Program-made: the position numbers and the translations under genes
The notes under the pieces: model-generated
Databases searched by the model: none
What the model was told of the DNA's origin: nothing
The model's input: the letters and a program-made list of their open reading frames with translations, nothing else
Assembly: GCA_001516055.1 (NCBI GenBank)
Contig: LOEZ01000007.1
Location: 1-64,000, forward strand
Length of the DNA: 64,000 nucleotides
Direction: 5' to 3'
DNA from: Gracilibacter sp. BRH_c7a
GTDB lineage: Bacteria > Bacillota > Desulfitobacteriia > Desulfitobacteriales > Syntrophobotulaceae
Shown here: positions 346 through 12,064 of the stretch, piece after piece
How the letters are laid out: every line of letters begins with the position of its first letter
How positions within the stretch are numbered: the stretch's first letter is position 1

Positions 346-1530
346 ATGAATACAGAAAAAATAGGATTAACCCTAGAAGATAAGAATTGGCGTTATAGTA
401 GGGTAAGGAAGTTTATCAAAGATGAAGGACTGGATGCTATCCTGCTTTCGGGGAATGCGTGGGAAGAATCTAATATTAGGTATATCACGGGTCAGTATTT
501 TAGAATTGGCCAACGGTATGCTTACGTTCTGTTTCCGGCAGATGGTGAGCCGGAGGTATTTGCGTTTCACCCGTCAAGGTCATATCAGTTGAGAGCTATC
601 GAAGAATTCAAAGATGATATATGGTTTGATGGTGAACACTTTCACTTCCCTACTTTTGAAGAAATATCTAGTTACATAAGGAAGTTAGGATTGGAAAATG
701 GCAAAATCGGAGTTGACAAGGTACTTATGGATGCAGCCAAATACGAAGCACTTTTGAAGGTGTTCCCAAATGCAGAATTCACCGATATAAACGAAGGATT
801 CACTGCATTAAGAAGGGTTAAATCTCCCGGGGAATTGAGCCTGTGTAAAGAGTCAGCTCGTGTCTGTGATGAAATTTGGGACTCCATGAGGTATTTTATT
901 AAGCCAGGTATGTACGATTATCAGATTACTGCCGAATGGTGCAGGATTATGTATGCAAACAAAGCAGATAAGGATTTTAACCTTATGCAGATTAATCCTT
1001 ACGATGTATCAGTGCCTTACTGGACAAGTTCGCACTCTCCTGTAAGGATCGATAGTAATAGTATGATTTTGATGGAGATTACCACCTGTATTGGCGGTTA
1101 TTGGACTCAACGGGTAGGCTGTGCCAGTATAGGTGAGCCTGAACCAGTTATGGTGGATCTGTATACAGCTACCAGCACAGCACAAATAAACTCTTCTAAG
1201 ATTGTCAAGCCTGGTATTAATGCAAAGGATGTATGCTTGGTAATGGATGAAACCATCACTAAGGCAGGCTTCCTTAATTCTTCTGATTTTAATGCCGGAC
1301 CACACGGTCATCTTATGGGGCTGACCATGGACGAAGGAACGTTTTCTCCTCAAGCAGATTTAATTCTCGAGGAGGGGATGGTATTTGTTCTCCATCCTAG
1401 TGCCGCTGTCCCAGGATTTAAACTCGGTGAGCCTGGTATGTTCAGTCCAGGAAATATGTATGTTGTAACAAAGAATGGTTGCGAGAAGCTGTATGGTTTG
1501 GATATCGAATTAATGATTATAGGTGAATGA
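346..1530 (+). CDS. M24-family (creatinase/aminopeptidase P fold) hydrolase lacking metal ligands
   Basis: A 394-residue protein with an N-terminal creatinase-like domain (about 15-150) and a C-terminal pita-bread domain (about 160-390). It starts at ATG 346 with AAGGAG at 333-338. The five M24 metal-ligand positions are altered: E244 and Q255 replace the two Asp, H322 is kept, H350 replaces the first Glu (context FVLHPSA) and G369/N370 replace the last Glu-Asp. Loss of metal binding with retained fold is the pattern of creatinase and ectoine hydrolase, which cleave C-N bonds without metal. The gene heads a cluster with a TRAP transporter and a second M24 gene, so it may hydrolyse the imported solute. 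The substrate is unknown. An ordinary Xaa-Pro peptidase is unlikely given the missing ligands. Confidence 0.8.
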   Translation: MNTEKIGLTLEDKNWRYSRVRKFIKDEGLDAILLSGNAWEESNIRYITGQYFRIGQRYAYVLFPADGEPEVFAFHPSRSYQLRAIEEFKDDIWFDGEHFHFPTFEEISSYIRKLGLENGKIGVDKVLMDAAKYEALLKVFPNAEFTDINEGFTALRRVKSPGELSLCKESARVCDEIWDSMRYFIKPGMYDYQITAEWCRIMYANKADKDFNLMQINPYDVSVPYWTSSHSPVRIDSNSMILMEITTCIGGYWTQRVGCASIGEPEPVMVDLYTATSTAQINSSKIVKPGINAKDVCLVMDETITKAGFLNSSDFNAGPHGHLMGLTMDEGTFSPQADLILEEGMVFVLHPSAAVPGFKLGEPGMFSPGNMYVVTKNGCEKLYGLDIELMIIGE

Positions 1531-1610
1531 TTCCAGTTTCCGTTATTGACAATCAGTGTAATGCAGAACCGCTGAACACAAATATATTATATATTTTGAG
1601 GAGGATGACT

Positions 1611-2705
1611 ATGAAAATGAAAAGAATTTTAACTTTGATTCTTGTAATTGCAGTTGCCTTTACAATGGCAGGGTGCTCTTCGAGCAGTAGTACCCCAAGT
1701 AGTAGTACCCCAAGCAGTGCCCCTAGCAGTGGTGCCGAGGATCTTGAAACGGCTCTTGCAAACATGGAGCCAATGGAACTTAATATGCCCATTAATTTAC
1801 CAGGTAATCATATTTTGACTCAGGCTTTTGAGACATGGGCGGACAGTATCAATGAAGTTACTAAAGGCAAAATTACCGTAACTATCCACCGAGGTGGTAC
1901 TCTTCTAAAGTCTGGGAGTATTTACCAGGGAGTTCGTGATGGGGTTGCTGAAATTGGGGAGGAAGACTTAGCTTATAACCCTTCCGAGTTCCCACTTTTT
2001 GGTGCTTTCTTCATGGGCGGCATTAAATTCCCTGATACCATCACGGCTTCCAAGGCGGTAAACGATTGGGTTCATGCAGACTTTGAAGAGTATAAAGATG
2101 TAAAAATGCTTTGGGCCTATAGTATGCCCCCATCTGTTTTAATGGGTAACAAAAAAATTGAAAAACTGGAAGATCTCCAGGGAACTCAAGTTAGGGTTAC
2201 AGGGTTCTGTCAGGATACTATCAAAAGATTAGGCGGCACTCCTGTAGGTATAACGATGTCGGAAACATATGATGCCTTACTAAAGGGTACAGTTGATCTT
2301 AATATGGCCAATCCCGGAGTTATGGGTGCTCCTCTTAATTTAGGTGAGGTTTCAAAATACATGACTATAACCCCAGGTATTTCTAATATTCCGCATGTAA
2401 TTTTCATGAATCTAGACGCATGGAACTCGATTCCTCCAGCTGTTCAGGCGGAAATTGAGAAGATAAACTTAGAAGCAGTTGTGAATACGGCAGAGCTCGG
2501 CGAAAAGTACTATAATGATGGACTTCAGATTTCTAGAGATAAAAACATTGAAATTATAGAACTAAGCGATACGGAGCTTCAAAGATGGTATGACGTCTTG
2601 AAGTCTCAGCATGATGATTGGATTAAGGAAAAAAATGCTGCAGGTCTTGATGGTCAGGGTGCTTACGATTATTTGATAGATCTGGTTAATAAATACTCTT
2701 CCTGA
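1611..2705 (+). CDS. dctP: TRAP transporter solute-binding lipoprotein (DctP family)
   Basis: A periplasmic-type receptor of the DctP family, tethered as a lipoprotein, that captures a small, usually carboxylate-bearing solute for the DctQM membrane proteins. Met at 1611 is preferred because GAGGAGG lies 6 bases upstream; the open frame extends further 5' without a ribosome site. Residues 1-20 are a lipoprotein signal ending in lipobox TMAGC (Cys21). A low-complexity Ser/Pro/Thr linker follows, encoded by a near-perfect DNA repeat at about 1681-1730. The mature domain has the DctP pattern, including the arginine-bearing segment GTQVRVTG expected to bind a carboxylate. It is about 364 residues, normal for the family. 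It lies 80 bases after the first M24 gene. Confidence 0.9.
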   Translation: MKMKRILTLILVIAVAFTMAGCSSSSSTPSSSTPSSAPSSGAEDLETALANMEPMELNMPINLPGNHILTQAFETWADSINEVTKGKITVTIHRGGTLLKSGSIYQGVRDGVAEIGEEDLAYNPSEFPLFGAFFMGGIKFPDTITASKAVNDWVHADFEEYKDVKMLWAYSMPPSVLMGNKKIEKLEDLQGTQVRVTGFCQDTIKRLGGTPVGITMSETYDALLKGTVDLNMANPGVMGAPLNLGEVSKYMTITPGISNIPHVIFMNLDAWNSIPPAVQAEIEKINLEAVVNTAELGEKYYNDGLQISRDKNIEIIELSDTELQRWYDVLKSQHDDWIKEKNAAGLDGQGAYDYLIDLVNKYSS

Positions 2706-2723
2706 TTGTTTTGTTATAAATGC

Positions 2724-2753
2724 AAGGGAAGGCGGCTTTTGTCACCTTCCCTT
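2724..2753 (+). terminator. Stem-loop between receptor and membrane genes
   Basis: A perfect 9-bp stem (AAGGGAAGG / CCTTCCCTT) with a 12-base loop in the 83-base gap between dctP and dctQ. No T-run follows. Stem-loops at this place in binding-protein transporter operons commonly stabilise the receptor mRNA or partly terminate transcription, so that receptor exceeds permease. That role is inferred here. Confidence 0.45.
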
Positions 2754-2788
2754 CGTAACTAATTTGAAGCAAGGAGAGTAGTATATTT

Positions 2789-3295
2789 ATGGACAAAACT
2801 TTTATGAATAAATATGAAAGAATTATTGATATACTTACCAAAATAACGGGCATTGCGGCAAATGTTGTTCTATTTTCTACAATGATGGTTGTAGCAATAA
2901 GCGTTCTGATGCGTATATTTCTAAATGCCCCGATTCCAGGACTGACGGACATTGTCAGTATGTTAAACGCCTTAGCTGTTGCATTTGCTGTAAGTGTAAC
3001 AGAGAAACAGCGTAAGCACATTAGAATAGATTTTGTTCGTCAATACCTACCATCGCATATCGCTAAATTTATCTTCGTCGTAGTGAACTCACTTGCGATA
3101 TTAGTCATAAGTGTTGTGACTTGGCGTTTTTTTCTGTACATTTTTAGTGCCTATGGACATGGAAATGCTACTTGGATTATGAAAATTCCCCATTGGCCTG
3201 TGATTCTATGTCTTTTTTTAGGCTTGGTGATCTTTCTTCTTACAGCAATCTGCAATCTTTTATCAGATCTTAACAGTTGGAAGGGGGCAGAATAA
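2789..3295 (+). CDS. dctQ: TRAP transporter small membrane subunit (DctQ)
   Basis: A 168-residue protein with four predicted membrane segments (about 20-45, 55-75, 92-115, 135-158), the layout of the DctQ subunit that pairs with DctM in sodium-driven TRAP uptake. The segment KQRKHIRIDF between helices 2 and 3 is the characteristic DctQ loop. GGAGAG lies upstream of ATG 2789. Its stop codon overlaps the start of the large subunit (TAATG), so the two are translationally coupled. Confidence 0.88.
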   Translation: MDKTFMNKYERIIDILTKITGIAANVVLFSTMMVVAISVLMRIFLNAPIPGLTDIVSMLNALAVAFAVSVTEKQRKHIRIDFVRQYLPSHIAKFIFVVVNSLAILVISVVTWRFFLYIFSAYGHGNATWIMKIPHWPVILCLFLGLVIFLLTAICNLLSDLNSWKGAE

Positions 3296-4596
3296 TGGAC
3301 ACAACAATTACATTGCTTGTATCCCTTTCTTTTTTCTTGTTTTTAATACTGGGTATGCCAATCGGTACGACAATGGCGTTATTCGGATTTTTGGGATTCA
3401 GTTTGCTTAGTAGTACTAAAGCTGCTACAAATTTGATAGCCATTGATATGTTTGCTAGTTTTGCTAACTACGATTTGAGTACTGTAGTTATGTTTGTCTG
3501 GATGGGTTATATTGCCTACCGATCTGGTATCGGTAGTCAACTTTTCGAATTAGCATATAAATTAATCGGGCATCGCCCGGGTGGACTATGCTTAGCTTCT
3601 GAAGTAGCTTGTGCTTCTTTTGGTGCAGTTTGTGGTTCGGCACCTGCTACTGTAGCAACAATTAGTTCCATAGCTTACCCCGAAATGAAAAAGCATAATT
3701 ATGATGACGGGCTACGTACTGCCTGTACAGCTGCGGGTGGAGGACTGGGACTTTTGATTCCACCTAGTACCATTGCTATCATCTACGGTATCGAAACAGG
3801 TTGCTCTATCGGCAGATTGTTTATCGCCGGTATAGGAGCAGGCATCTTATTGTTGTTACTTTATATGTTGGTCATCTATATCCAAGTGAAGAGAAATCCT
3901 TCATTAGCACCCAGAGGAGAAAAATTCACGTGGAGGGAACGTATTGAAGCTATGAGAGGCGGTCTGATTGAAACATTCATTATTTTTGGGCTATCAATAG
4001 GCGGTCTTTCAATTGGTTTCTTTACGCCGACTGAAGGTGGTGGAGTCGGTTGTTTTCTGCTACTTGTCCTTACAGTAGTTAGAAAAAAACTGCCTTGGAA
4101 AGCTTTTGTGGCTTCACTCAGAGATACGGCTGAGACTATTGGCATGATTTTGTTTATTCTTGCTTGTGCCATGATTTTCGGCAGATTTATTTCCATCTCG
4201 GGAATTCCTATGATAATTTCCGACTGGCTTATTGGTTTAAATACTTATCCCATTGTAGTGATGATACTGATATGTATAATCTTGCTGATTGCGGGTTGCT
4301 TTATTGATGGAATTATTGTAGTTATCCTTACAGTACCGATTTTCTTCCCAATTGTAGAAATACTTGGCTTTGATGCAATATGGTTTGGAGTTATTATTAC
4401 TCTTTGTGTTATCATGGGACAGATTACTCCACCAGTTGGCATGGGATGTTATATTGCCCACGGGATTGCACCGGAGGTTCCTCTGCCAGTAATTTTTAAA
4501 GCAGCTTTACCATTTTTATTAGCATTAATAATCTGTACTGCTTTGGTAATGGCATTTCCGCAGATTGTTCTCTTCCTTCCCAACATGCTTATGTAA
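3295..4596 (+). CDS. dctM: TRAP transporter large permease (DctM)
   Basis: The 433-residue channel-forming subunit of the TRAP transporter, with about 12 hydrophobic segments. The N-terminal SFFLFLILGMPIGTTMALFG and the glycine-rich stretches around GGGLGLLIPPS and ITPPVGMGCYI are DctM hallmarks. The start is placed at ATG 3295 because GGGGG precedes it closely and it overlaps the dctQ stop; the open frame reaches 3277. It is the third gene of the M24-TRAP-M24 cluster. About 60 bases separate it from the second M24 gene, and no terminator is visible between them. Confidence 0.9.
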   Translation: MDTTITLLVSLSFFLFLILGMPIGTTMALFGFLGFSLLSSTKAATNLIAIDMFASFANYDLSTVVMFVWMGYIAYRSGIGSQLFELAYKLIGHRPGGLCLASEVACASFGAVCGSAPATVATISSIAYPEMKKHNYDDGLRTACTAAGGGLGLLIPPSTIAIIYGIETGCSIGRLFIAGIGAGILLLLLYMLVIYIQVKRNPSLAPRGEKFTWRERIEAMRGGLIETFIIFGLSIGGLSIGFFTPTEGGGVGCFLLLVLTVVRKKLPWKAFVASLRDTAETIGMILFILACAMIFGRFISISGIPMIISDWLIGLNTYPIVVMILICIILLIAGCFIDGIIVVILTVPIFFPIVEILGFDAIWFGVIITLCVIMGQITPPVGMGCYIAHGIAPEVPLPVIFKAALPFLLALIICTALVMAFPQIVLFLPNMLM

Positions 4597-4659
4597 ATTC
4601 TAGTAACCGAAGTTGAAATTTGTATTAATGCAAATAATTAATAAGGATGGTGAGTTATT

Positions 4660-5856
4660 TTGGGTGAAAAAGAACGCAAAGAGAGACTAAAAGAGCCTAT
4701 TCCTGAGAGAGAATTGAAGAGGCGCCATGAAGCAGTAAGATCCGTGATGAAATCTATGAACATCGATTGTTTAATTATGCAGAACTGTAATAAGCATCTG
4801 GGTGGTTATGTACGATGGTTTACCGATGTATTTGCGGAGAATTCTTACCCCATTACGGTAATTTTCCCCTTAAATGAAGAGATGACTATAATTTCCTGCG
4901 GGGGCCCTCCAAGACCAGCTTTTCCTCCTTTATGGGCAACATATGGAGTCAAGGAAGTAATCGGGCTTCCCTATTTTCTTACCTTTAATTACACAAACAC
5001 ATTAGATGCAGAGGCTACGGAAAAAGTTATTCGTCAAATGAAAGCAAAGACTGTTGGTATTGTGGGGCCAGCTTTTATTCCCTCAACCTTTGATAAACAT
5101 CTTAGAAATAACTTACTCAATGTTGAATTTCTTGATATAACTGATGCTATTGATGAAATAAAAGCCATAAAAAGTAAAGATGAGTTTAATCTTATTAAGA
5201 AGACCTGCGCTATTCAAGATAGTGTAATTATGGCTATTCCCGCCTTTCTTCATCCTCGAATGAAAGACATTGAACTACGGGCAATTATCCAGCATTTACT
5301 TTTTGACATGGGTTCTGAGGAGCAACTGCTGATGCTCGGTTCTGCACCAATTGGCGGCTTGGCAAAACACAGCAGCCCATACTTACAAAATAGAGTTATT
5401 GGTGAAAACGATTATATTACAGTTTTAATTGAAACCAACGGACCAGGTGGTTATTATGCTGAAATCGCCAGGGTATTTTGCCTTAATGAGCCGACTGAAG
5501 AAATGCTGAAACTCTGGGAAGCAAATATAAAGGCTCAGAAAATCTGTGCAGATATGCTTAAACCCGGGGCAAATCTATTTCAAATACAGGAAGCACTTAA
5601 TTCATTTCTGGAAGAGAACGGCTACCCCACTGAAAATAGTCTTTTTGCCCACGGCCAAGGATACGATTTAGTTGAGCGTCCGGCTAATTTATCGGAGGAG
5701 ACAATAAAGATTAAACCCAATATGAATATTGCAATTCATCCCCGACTATCCACCAACACAGCATTTACTTTTTGTTGTGATAATTTCTTTACGACTGAGT
5801 TTGGATGTATGCGACTGCACAAAGCTCCCCAAGAGATCTTTGTCATACCTCATTAA
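4660..5856 (+). CDS. Second M24-fold hydrolase without canonical metal ligands
   Basis: A 398-residue M24-fold protein beginning at TTG 4660, with the purine-rich GGATGGTGAG just upstream. It is a distant paralogue of the gene at 346. At the M24 ligand positions it has E258 and E268 (in YYAEIAR) instead of two Asp, H331 in AHGQGYD, H360 in place of Glu (NIAIHP) and C373/D374 instead of Glu-Asp. The two genes are substituted differently, so they likely act on different compounds or on successive steps. It closes the TRAP cluster and is followed by a strong terminator. Ectoine/hydroxyectoine or creatine-like substrates are possible by analogy with other M24 plus TRAP clusters; this is unproven. 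Confidence 0.78.
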   Translation: MGEKERKERLKEPIPERELKRRHEAVRSVMKSMNIDCLIMQNCNKHLGGYVRWFTDVFAENSYPITVIFPLNEEMTIISCGGPPRPAFPPLWATYGVKEVIGLPYFLTFNYTNTLDAEATEKVIRQMKAKTVGIVGPAFIPSTFDKHLRNNLLNVEFLDITDAIDEIKAIKSKDEFNLIKKTCAIQDSVIMAIPAFLHPRMKDIELRAIIQHLLFDMGSEEQLLMLGSAPIGGLAKHSSPYLQNRVIGENDYITVLIETNGPGGYYAEIARVFCLNEPTEEMLKLWEANIKAQKICADMLKPGANLFQIQEALNSFLEENGYPTENSLFAHGQGYDLVERPANLSEETIKIKPNMNIAIHPRLSTNTAFTFCCDNFFTTEFGCMRLHKAPQEIFVIPH

Positions 5857-5880: not shown

Positions 5881-5937
5881 AAAATGAAGCTCCCATTAGC
5901 ATATGAGAGATATGCTAATGGAGGCTTCATTTTTGTT
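5881..5937 (+). terminator. Strong bidirectional-type terminator
   Basis: A long inverted repeat: AAAATGAAGC and CCATTAGCATAT on the left, with the matching ATATGCTAATGG and GCTTCATTTTT on the right, around a GAGAG loop. It ends in TTTTTG on the plus strand and in A-rich DNA that reads as a T-run on the minus strand. It separates the TRAP/M24 cluster from the convergent regulator gene and can serve both. Confidence 0.85.
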
Positions 5938-5962: not shown

Positions 5963-6625
5963 TTAATAAATATTTGAATTAGTCTTATCATTTATTTTAA
6001 ACTTGCCTTTACCCAAGCAAATAATAAGACCAGACTGTTTAAGATTATCGATAACACGGCTTGCCGTTACTCGATTCATGCCTGCTAAAAGAGCTAATTC
6101 CTCATGGGTGAAAGAAAATACCTGTTTCTGTAAGGACATGAATTCATAGCTTAGTTTTTGAATCCGATAAAGTATTTTTTCCGTGCTATTATCTAAAGCA
6201 TGATGTTCAATGTTACTAACGGCCTGAGAAAAGCGTTGACTTAACTTATGAATAATTTCAATACTTAATTCGGGAGATTTTGAACAGAGATCAATAAAGT
6301 CTTTAGTAGAAAAACAACAAGCTTCTATCTCTGTCTTGGTATAAAAAGTTATGTCGTTTCTTTCTTCCAGGAGAATATTGCCTAGTCCAATAATATTACC
6401 TTGTCCCACGCAGTCGATACCAATCTGCCTTCCATCAGGACGCTGCTTTAATGTAATAGCCACACCTTTAACAATTAAAAACAAATAACCGTGTTTACCA
6501 ATTTTCACAGTAATATTCTTTTTTGGTGGGTATGTACAAGGTGATGAAATATTGCACAAACATTCTCTGATATGTGACTCTAGGGAGAGACAGAATGGAT
6601 TTAGGCCGCAAGATGGTCTGGACAT
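5963..6625 (-). CDS. Crp/Fnr-family transcription regulator, cysteine-rich
   Basis: A 220-residue regulator with an N-terminal cyclic-nucleotide-binding-like barrel (about 25-140) and a Crp-type helix-turn-helix (about 172-202, with ELALLAGMNRVTASRVI). It carries ten cysteines, five of them in the first 30 residues (6, 12, 22, 24, 30), plus C72, C103, C104, C114 and C203. That is enough to bind an Fe-S cluster or act by thiol-disulfide switching, as in FNR or CprK; this is inference. The barrel lacks an obvious cAMP-binding signature. It faces the TRAP/M24 cluster and is divergent from the lipoprotein gene at 6812. A CAATATATTG palindrome at 6660-6669, about 35 bases upstream of its start, could be its own operator. 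Confidence 0.85.
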   Translation of the reverse strand: MSRPSCGLNPFCLSLESHIRECLCNISSPCTYPPKKNITVKIGKHGYLFLIVKGVAITLKQRPDGRQIGIDCVGQGNIIGLGNILLEERNDITFYTKTEIEACCFSTKDFIDLCSKSPELSIEIIHKLSQRFSQAVSNIEHHALDNSTEKILYRIQKLSYEFMSLQKQVFSFTHEELALLAGMNRVTASRVIDNLKQSGLIICLGKGKFKINDKTNSNIY

Positions 6626-8608: not shown

Positions 8609-11600
8609 ATGAAAAAAATCACAAAGCATAATCGAATTACTGTAACTGTTAACGGACGAGAAATGGAAGTTTATGACGACCTCACTATCCTACAGGCATT
8701 GATTCAGGAAGATATTCATATTCCTCATCTCTGTTATGATATCAGACTTGAGCGTTCTAATGGGAACTGCGGATTGTGTGTGGTTGAGTTAGGGGAGGGA
8801 CACGATCAACGGGATGTAAAAGCGTGTCATACTCCTATTAAAGAGGGCATGGTGATATGTACCAATAGCCCCAAACTGGAAAATTATCGAAAGATTCGTC
8901 TGGAACAAATTCTATCCGATCATAATGCAGATTGTGTCGCTCCTTGTGTAATGACTTGCCCTGCAAACATTGATATTCAAGCTTATCTTCGACATGCAGG
9001 TAATGGTAATTTTGAAGCAGCAGTGCAAGTGATTAAAGAAAAGAATCCTTTCCCAATTGTCTGTGGACGGGTTTGCCCACATCCCTGTGAGGCACAATGC
9101 CGACGTAACCTGATTGACTCTCCTGTAGCAATTAATAATGTGAAACGTTTTATTGCAGATTGGGATATAGAGCGAGAACAACCATGGATTCCAAAAAAAA
9201 ATCCTGCAACAGGTAAGAAAATTGCTGTTGTCGGTGCGGGCCCATCCGGCCTTACAGCATCCTATTACAGTGCGATAAACGGCCATGATGTAACTGTATT
9301 TGAAGGACAATCTTATGCAGGAGGAATGATGCGTTATGGAATTCCTGAGTATCGTCTGCCTGAAGCTACACTGGATCAGGAGATTGAGCTTATAAAAAGT
9401 TTAGGCGTTAAGATTATGACCAAGAAGAAACTCGGAACCCATATTCATCTCGAGGATCTTCATAAAGATTTTGATGCTGTTTATCTTGGGATTGGCTCCT
9501 GGCGGGCAACTTCCTTGCAGATTGAAGGTGAAAACCTGGAAGGAGTGTGGCTGGGAATACAGTTCCTGGAACAGGTAACCAAGCAGGAAGAAATTAAGCT
9601 GGGTAATAATGTAATTGTTATTGGTGGTGGCAATACGGCAATTGACTGTGCCCGTACTGCACTCCGTAAAGGAGCAAAATCTGTTAAACTTGTCTACCGC
9701 CGCACCATGGAAGATATGCCTGCTGAAGCTTATGAAGTAGAAGAAGCTTTGCAGGAAGGTGTCGAAATGCTATTTTTGACAGCACCAAGTAAAATTGTTG
9801 CTGAAGGCGGTAAAAAGGTGCTTCATTGCATTCAAATGGAGCTTGGGGAACCTGATCGTTCCGGTCGTCGTCGCCCAATTCCGATTGAAGGCAGTGATAT
9901 ACACGTTGAAGCGGACACAATTATTGGAGCAATTGGTCAGAGTACAAACACCCAATTTCTCTATAATGACCTGCCGGTAAAATTGAATAAATGGGGAGAC
10001 ATTGAAATCAATGGCAAGACTTCTCAGACGTCTGAACTCAACATTTTTGCTGGCGGTGACTGCGTTACAGGGCCCGCAACTGTTATTCAGGCAGTAGCAG
10101 CAGGGCGTCGTGCAGCTGAGGCTATGGATAGTTTCTTGATGAAAGGATATGTCAAGGAACAACATATTGACTATAGTTGCAGCCGTGGTTCTATGGAGGA
10201 TCTCCCCAAATGGGAGTTCGAGATAATCCCAAAATTAGAACGTGCTAAGATGCCTGCAATTTCCATTGAAGAACGTAAAAATAATTTCAAGGAAGTTGAT
10301 TTAGGTTACACGGAACAAACTGCAAGAGAGGAAGCTCGTCGCTGTCTTAAATGTGGCTGTCATGAACGGTATGATTGTGACCTAAGAAATGAAGCAAGTG
10401 CTCATAATATTGAATATTCGAATCCAACTCATGAACGTCCACTTATTCCTCTAGTTGAAGACCATTCTGTGATTGTGCGTGATCATAATAAATGCATTTC
10501 GTGCGGGCGATGTATAGCTGCCTGTGCTGAGGTTGAAGGACCGGATGTTCTCACATTTTATATGAAACATGGTCGCCAACTTGTTGGGACAAAAAGCGGC
10601 CTTCCGTTAGAGAAAACTGATTGTGTTAGTTGTGGTCAATGTGTAAATGCCTGTCCCTGCGGTGCTCTCGATTACCGGAGTGAAAAAGGAAAAGTTTTCA
10701 GAGCAATCAATGATCCGGATAAAACTGTTGTGGCCTTTGTTGCCCCGGCTGTGCGCAGTGTTGTTTCTTCTCATTTCGGGATTCCCTTCAATGATGCGTC
10801 TTCTTTTATGGCAGGCCTGCTTAAAAAAATGGGCTTTAATAAAGTGTTTGACTTCACTTTCGCAGCAGATTTAACCATAATTGAAGAAACAACAGAGTTT
10901 TTGAACCGCATAGCGAAAGAGGAGGTAATGCCTCAATTTACTTCCTGTTGCCCAGGTTGGGTTAACTTTGTGGAAAGGCGTTATCCAGAAATAATCCCTC
11001 ACCTTTCAAGTTGTAAATCTCCCCAAATGATGATGGGGGCTACGGTAAAAAATCATTTTACCAAGTTAGAGGGTATCGATAAAAAAGATTTGTATGTTGT
11101 TTCAATAGTTCCGTGTATTGCCAAGAAATATGAGGCGGCTCGTCCAGAATTCGCACCTGAAGGAATGCGTGATGTGGATGCTGTTCTAACTTCAACTGAG
11201 ATGTTGGAAATGGTTGAACAGAAACTAATTGACCCGAATGACGTCGTGCCTCAAGACTTTTGTAATCCCTACAAACGAGTTTCAGGTGCAGGCATACTCT
11301 TCGGTGCCTCAGGAGGTGTAGCTGAAGCTGCTCTGCGTATGGCAGTTGAGAAGCTTACAGGAAAAGTACTCACTGATCATTTGGATTTTGAAGAAGTACG
11401 GGGTTTCGAAGGTGTAAAAGAAGCTACTGTTGAAGCTAGCGGCACTAAAGTACACGTTGCGGTCATAAGTGGTCTGAATAATGCCGAGCCGATTATCGAA
11501 AAAATTATTCAGGGTGTAGATGTTGGCTACGACCTGATTGAAGTAATGGCTTGCCCAGGGGGCTGTATCTGTGGAGCAGGGCATCCTGTTCCGGAAAAAA

Positions 11601-12064
11601 TAGATGCCCTAGAAAAGCGGCAGCAGGTACTTGTGGATATAGATAAGACTTCTATCTACCGTAAGTCGCAAGAGAACCCAGATGTGCTCAGATTGTATAA
11701 AGACTTTTACGGTGAAGCTAACTCGGATCTAGCTCATAAACTGCTGCACACCCAGTATAGCCCTGTAAATAGTGAGTATGTTGGTATAAATGTTCGCAAA
11801 AAGGACGATTCTGCGTTTGTAACACGTGAATTTACTATTTGCACATGTGATGCGTGTACAGCTTTGGGCTCTAAAGAGTTATACCATAAAATGACTGACA
11901 AAATTGAACAATTAAAAATGAATGCGTTTGTTAGAGTAAAAACCATCCGTTTGAAAGGAAACCATACTGGTTCAGGTAAGCAGATCTATATTACTTTAGA
12001 TGGAAAAATAATTGAAGAACCGAAATTTGAAGATATTTATAAAAGCATACATCAGCCGATATAA
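8609..12064 (+). CDS. [FeFe] hydrogenase fused to an NAD(P)-dependent GltD-like oxidoreductase module
   Basis: An 1151-residue, multi-cofactor cytoplasmic enzyme. In order it has: a plant-type [2Fe-2S] domain (about 8-85; CGLC); a GltD-type N-terminal Fe-S domain (about 108-160; CVAPCVMTC, CGRVCPHPC); FAD and NAD(P) Rossmann motifs (VVGAGPSGL near 205, IGGGNTAIDCA near 337); two [4Fe-4S] motifs (CISCGRC near 631, CVSCGQC near 672); and the H-cluster domain with TSCCPGW (C780, C781), PCIAKKYE (C836) and ACPGGCICG (C982, C986). The C-terminal 70 residues contain CTCDACTALGS, like half of a thioredoxin-fold [2Fe-2S] domain. It likely couples H2 formation or uptake to pyridine nucleotide, possibly by electron bifurcation. 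L2 has Val instead of the usual Met before PC. It is flanked by terminators on both sides, and no maturase genes are in view. Confidence 0.93.
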   Translation: MKKITKHNRITVTVNGREMEVYDDLTILQALIQEDIHIPHLCYDIRLERSNGNCGLCVVELGEGHDQRDVKACHTPIKEGMVICTNSPKLENYRKIRLEQILSDHNADCVAPCVMTCPANIDIQAYLRHAGNGNFEAAVQVIKEKNPFPIVCGRVCPHPCEAQCRRNLIDSPVAINNVKRFIADWDIEREQPWIPKKNPATGKKIAVVGAGPSGLTASYYSAINGHDVTVFEGQSYAGGMMRYGIPEYRLPEATLDQEIELIKSLGVKIMTKKKLGTHIHLEDLHKDFDAVYLGIGSWRATSLQIEGENLEGVWLGIQFLEQVTKQEEIKLGNNVIVIGGGNTAIDCARTALRKGAKSVKLVYRRTMEDMPAEAYEVEEALQEGVEMLFLTAPSKIVAEGGKKVLHCIQMELGEPDRSGRRRPIPIEGSDIHVEADTIIGAIGQSTNTQFLYNDLPVKLNKWGDIEINGKTSQTSELNIFAGGDCVTGPATVIQAVAAGRRAAEAMDSFLMKGYVKEQHIDYSCSRGSMEDLPKWEFEIIPKLERAKMPAISIEERKNNFKEVDLGYTEQTAREEARRCLKCGCHERYDCDLRNEASAHNIEYSNPTHERPLIPLVEDHSVIVRDHNKCISCGRCIAACAEVEGPDVLTFYMKHGRQLVGTKSGLPLEKTDCVSCGQCVNACPCGALDYRSEKGKVFRAINDPDKTVVAFVAPAVRSVVSSHFGIPFNDASSFMAGLLKKMGFNKVFDFTFAADLTIIEETTEFLNRIAKEEVMPQFTSCCPGWVNFVERRYPEIIPHLSSCKSPQMMMGATVKNHFTKLEGIDKKDLYVVSIVPCIAKKYEAARPEFAPEGMRDVDAVLTSTEMLEMVEQKLIDPNDVVPQDFCNPYKRVSGAGILFGASGGVAEAALRMAVEKLTGKVLTDHLDFEEVRGFEGVKEATVEASGTKVHVAVISGLNNAEPIIEKIIQGVDVGYDLIEVMACPGGCICGAGHPVPEKIDALEKRQQVLVDIDKTSIYRKSQENPDVLRLYKDFYGEANSDLAHKLLHTQYSPVNSEYVGINVRKKDDSAFVTREFTICTCDACTALGSKELYHKMTDKIEQLKMNAFVRVKTIRLKGNHTGSGKQIYITLDGKIIEEPKFEDIYKSIHQPI

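Follow-up and report, generated by a model that had tools for sequence, protein, structure and literature searches.

M24 proteins, which make up the pita-bread superfamily, are routinely annotated as metallopeptidases and include Xaa-Pro dipeptidase and aminopeptidase P (e.g. PepQ and YpdF), in which two metals are held by a canonical D/D/H/E/E ligand set (Asp-1, Asp-2, a central His, and the glutamates E1 and E2). The DMSP lyase DddP is an M24 scaffold with new, non-hydrolytic chemistry on a small solute, and creatinase and the ectoine hydrolase DoeA/EutD share the fold. DoeA gene clusters also contain TRAP importers (PMC5924519), and an arginine of TRAP binding proteins has a carboxylate-binding role (PMC11668362).

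Here, we describe five consecutive genes on the + strand (positions 346-5856) of a 64,000-nucleotide stretch of Gracilibacter sp. BRH_c7a DNA, referred to below as the window, in which a TRAP transporter lies between two M24 homologues, A and B. All five products pass their Pfam cut-offs. Homologue A (346-1530, 394 aa) matches Creatinase_N (PF01321, 55.4 bits) and Peptidase_M24 (PF00557, 78.7 bits), and is followed by the solute-binding lipoprotein DctP (1611-2705; PF03480, 123 bits), the small permease DctQ (2789-3295; PF04290, 69.8 bits), the large permease DctM (3277-4596; PF06808, 323 bits, with TIGR00786 also above cut-off), and homologue B (4660-5856, 398 aa, TTG start; PF00557, 91 bits). 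All three subunits of the transporter are thus present in one operon. A Shine-Dalgarno-like AAGGAG lies upstream of A and, because GAGGAGG precedes the ATG at 1611, this is probably the true DctP start and the reading frame opening at 1527 an artefact. The window begins at the edge of its contig (C7, in a 4.1 Mb genome), leaving 345 nt upstream of A; these contain a perfect 9-bp inverted repeat (AAAATAACA-N5-TGTTATTTT, 203-225) that is a possible operator of the operon.

A 24-bp inverted repeat (92%; 5881-5933) of terminator-like character separates B from a convergent gene (5963-6625, - strand) for a CRP/FNR-type protein with cNMP_binding and HTH_Crp_2 domains, which is a candidate regulator. 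It has five cysteines within its first 30 residues and might be a redox or Fe-S sensor; a 41% identical homologue that keeps several of these cysteines adjoins the syntenic operon in the related genome G066, and searches of the PDB gave general CRP/FNR-family matches only. Further along, the window encodes a 1151-aa [FeFe] hydrogenase fused with a glutamate-synthase-small-subunit-like flavin domain (8609-12064); this hydrogenase and the Gracilibacteraceae relatives agree with the anaerobic host proposed in the initial annotation.

Homologues A and B were compared in an alignment of 56 M24 homologues from the order, to which creatinase, alphaproteobacterial homologues and others were then added. 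The five canonical ligand positions correspond to E244, Q255, H322, H350 and G369 in A (codons at 1075, 1108, 1309, 1393 and, for G369-N370, 1450), and to L256, E268, H331, H360 and C373 in B (the last four with codons at 5461, 5650, 5737 and, for C373-D374, 5776). The Asp-1 column is gap-shifted in some rows of the extended alignment, and this position was read straight from the sequence for A and B; when residues are counted along the strand starting at the conserved D251, Asp-1 of B falls on L256, and we read its invariant glutamate as E258 (codon at 5431), two residues further on and on the same strand face. Neither protein has the D/D/H/E/E set of the PepQ/APP metallopeptidases, with four of the five ligands replaced in each, and no member of either clade has Glu at E2. 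The initial annotation had correctly placed the retained histidines (H322 and H331) and listed replacements that stand, but it left out the Glu-to-His change at E1 (H350 and H360). Its statement that the metal ligands are lost holds for the canonical set in both proteins and goes too far for B, where three canonical positions of the M1 site are still occupied by Glu/His/His.

These signatures are clade-wide. In a maximum-likelihood tree A belongs to a clade of six proteins and B to one of 52, each with full support (100/100), and a sister relation between the two clades is unsupported (90/55, with long branches). Since each clade has its own fixed signature and the M24-TRAP-M24 order recurs, the observation goes beyond chance. 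In the B clade, all 45 non-degenerate members have Glu, Asp or His at the second ligand position together with both histidines (mostly Glu, with Asp in L082-L084 and His in L050, L080 and L081), and a motif of the form H-G/S-Q-G ... ER ... HP is near-constant. A single position at which Glu, Asp and His replace one another, beside two fixed histidines, is the pattern that metal ligands would be expected to give, and since these residues occupy three canonical metal positions, B may have a mononuclear metal site rather than none.

The other seven members of the B clade are degenerate, with Thr at Asp-2, Asn at E1 and often Tyr or Phe replacing the central His. The flanks are intact for six of the seven, and each of the six lies directly beside a non-degenerate protein from one other subclade (L065, L071, L072, L073, L074 and L075), which suggests that the two subclades, always found together, form obligate pairs. 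Tentatively, the B clade may have converted the two-metal M24 centre to a mononuclear 2-His-1-carboxylate (or 3-His) site and diversified into numerous catabolic enzymes that are linked to transporters and act on organic acids, perhaps aromatic ones, with one branch an obligate heteromer containing a degenerate, non-catalytic M24 partner. The whole genome that contains the window (G000) has ten M24 matches, and among those aligned only the C83 copy has the full canonical ligand set; one (C53:35001) has D/C/H/E/E and lies beside genes for a galactitol-type PTS IIC and PDH-like E1/E2, and the C21 copy has lost most ligands.

AlphaFold models, built on alignments of 10-11 sequences, predict the full creatinase/prolidase fold for both A (pLDDT 83.8, pTM 0.85) and B (pLDDT 75.7, pTM 0.80). 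The best PDB match of A is DoeA (6yo9, Z 37.0), and those of B are DoeA (Z 34.3) and creatinase (Z 34.0), with prolidases one or two units away at most. Overall, the Z scores of DoeA, creatinase and the prolidases lie within about 1-3 units. Together with the PF00557 matches, Z scores of 34-37 place both proteins in the M24 superfamily; the predicted structures fix the fold and not the function. The transporter flanked by two M24-fold enzymes, as first described, is confirmed by the gene run, the Pfam matches and the predicted folds.

The two homologues differ in their distribution. A is found in only a few Gracilibacteraceae-like genomes: a scan of genome contigs recovered close relatives on three Gracilibacteraceae MAG contigs, the other 15 matches being remote M24 proteins of at most 31% identity, and A has no relative among viral contigs and is present in no other genome of a phylum-wide sample (299 genomes). 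B is patchy, occurring in 12 of the 74 genomes from the order and in two other genomes of the phylum sample, with clear homologues on three plasmids; it is absent from the 21 other genomes of the order to which G363 belongs. Such a spread suggests that accessory modules have been gained and transferred. The M24-DctPQM-M24 order was also found in G066:C125, where A and B are 66% and 69% identical to those of the window and an MFS gene lies between B and the regulator, as well as in G067:C146 (two A-type proteins), G065:C103 and G066:C96 (both with B-type proteins).

Gene neighbourhoods were counted at 42 loci with A- or B-clade genes, selected by M24 alone and scored within four genes on the understanding that the loci are phylogenetically related and the counts are not independent events. 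A labelled organic-anion transporter is present at 31 loci (TRAP at 24), a 2-hydroxy/2-oxo-acid dehydrogenase of D-2-hydroxyacid, ketopantoate-reductase-like, tartrate/isopropylmalate or malate type at 19, and a labelled regulator at 23. The 346-5856 operon itself contains no dehydrogenase. In the whole genome, with its 15 DctM genes, the single strong ApbA gene and one of just four strong D-2-hydroxyacid dehydrogenases each adjoin a B-clade copy. One M24 locus has a DASS permease and another CitMHS and MatC-type carriers, and the closest match of the MFS protein in G066 is the aromatic-acid/H+ symport family, below its cut-off. The recurrence of transporters and dehydrogenases upholds the earlier suggestion of an import-plus-catabolism module. 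Plasmid-borne homologues of B in alphaproteobacteria have a D-2-hydroxyacid dehydrogenase gene and TRAP genes close by in Pacificitalea, with the same 21-kb region in Aminobacter, and are surrounded by ring-oxidation genes in Rhizobium.

The binding protein gives a further indication of the substrate. The Arg in the GTQVRV motif of DctP, the conserved carboxylate-type arginine of TRAP binding proteins, is invariant in 14 of 14 M24-linked DctPs, as is just one other residue. Among solved structures, DctP is closest to 4n6d, 4pgn, 4nap and 4p56, at E-values (E-19 to E-38) too distant for ligand assignment, and a profile of the 14 proteins matches TRAP binding proteins generally, with no single ligand picked out. 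We take the ligands of 4pgn, 4nap and 4p56 to be aromatic (indolepyruvate and D-tryptophan in 4pgn and 4nap). Because the DctPs of other M24 loci are only 17-62% identical to that of the window, their substrates presumably differ and pooling context across loci is unsafe. On the basis of the arginine, the solved relatives and the neighbouring genes, the substrate leans towards organic, perhaps aromatic, acids, and nothing picks out a nitrogen compound.

We propose, with a probability of roughly one half, that the operon is an uptake-and-breakdown module for a carboxylate-bearing small molecule, with A and B hydrolysing a C-N or C-O bond. DctPQM would import the substrate, and A and B would act in the cytoplasm on it or on successive products. 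B would most likely activate water through Glu268, His331 and His360, these residues forming a metal-free acid/base set or the single-metal remnant of a two-metal centre, and A would use Glu244, His322 and His350 plus Gln255. Organic acids set free in this way could pass to 2-hydroxy/2-oxo-acid dehydrogenases, which lie beside many sister copies and outside this operon. Hydrolysis is the most likely reaction, and its assignment rests on analogy because no activity is known for any enzyme of these clades; searches of the open-access literature turned up no description of one.

The initial annotation had instead drawn an analogy with creatinase and ectoine hydrolase and proposed a nitrogen compound as substrate. 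That A and B hydrolyse the C-N bond of a small nitrogenous solute without a metal, the solute being of creatine, ectoine, guanidino or betaine type, seems to us unlikely, although it fits the best structural matches (DoeA for both models, creatinase for B) and the Glu at Asp-1 common to A and DoeA. Anaerobes do have modules of this kind, as in Peptoclostridium acidaminophilum, where a creatinase-like M24 gene on a plasmid (L107, 5956-7194) lies between genes for a BCCT transporter and sarcosine/glycine reductase. A cluster conserved in three genomes (L082, L083 and L084) combines tartrate-dehydrogenase-like, M24 (with Asp/His/His), dihydropyrimidinase-like, malate-dehydrogenase-like and nitrilase-like genes with a PucR-type regulator, and with TRAP genes in two of the three; the hydantoinase-like and nitrilase-like partners keep C-N chemistry possible for this subclade. 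However, the analogy is not supported for A and B: their active-site sets differ from those of DoeA and creatinase, both proteins miss the DoeA NCBIfam cut-offs by more than 500 bits (22-53 bits against 613 for TIGR02993, and 31-35 against 575 for NF038259), and their relatives neighbour organic-anion transporters and dehydrogenases. The narrow spread of Z scores does not separate DoeA and creatinase from the prolidases, the column aligned with the catalytic His232 of creatinase varies in B and has no His in A, the ectoine-binding TeaA is not among the nine closest solved relatives of DctP, and no amine-handling gene is present in the operon.

Lyase or decarboxylase activity, with the M24 scaffold re-used for non-hydrolytic organic-acid chemistry as in DddP, is more doubtful. 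DddP shares the fold (Z about 30), and relatives of A and B have neighbours such as UbiD (near one M24 relative), BKACE and fumarylacetoacetate hydrolase genes, in addition to the 2-hydroxyacid dehydrogenases, but these neighbours vary from locus to locus and DddP is not among the sequence matches of either protein. It is improbable that A and B are M24 peptidases, such as dipeptidases, that depend on metal bound by an unusual ligand set. Prolidases are close in sequence and B retains three metal-capable residues, but the canonical ligands are largely replaced, E2 is never Glu, and the neighbouring transporters carry organic anions rather than peptides.

Hydrolytic breakdown of an imported carboxylate is therefore the reading we prefer, and an import-and-digest module with altered M24 enzymes, one among many in relatives, is supported. 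Because two coherent clades with a rewritten site recur in transporter modules, it is likely that many proteins labelled 'M24 family metallopeptidase' are misannotated, both in anaerobes and on plasmids of alphaproteobacteria. The A and B clades offer a direct test of how a two-metal peptidase site is adapted to new chemistry. In addition, many of the operons encode their own binding protein, usable for finding the substrate.

Alignment with creatinase, DoeA and prolidases confirms that the sites of A and B are non-canonical, as the initial annotation had proposed, with DddP compared by fold alone. The creatinase query matched 1chm over its full length and the EutD query DoeA 6twk at E 2e-174, and DoeA residues were read from the sequence of 6twk itself. 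With the prolidases, A and B share the fold and the central His but not the two-metal set. DoeA (6twj, 6twk, 6yo9) has the same two-domain fold, but its site is E/P/Y/M/T, of which A shares only the Glu at Asp-1, the other four positions being Q/H/H/G in A and E/H/H/C in B. Creatinase (1chm, 7yto, 1kp0) likewise has the fold and an altered metal site, but this is N/A/H/E/H (with Glu262 two residues past the Ala), keeping Glu at E1 and His at E2, whereas in A and B E1 is His and E2 lacks a ligand, a combination present in neither creatinase nor DoeA.
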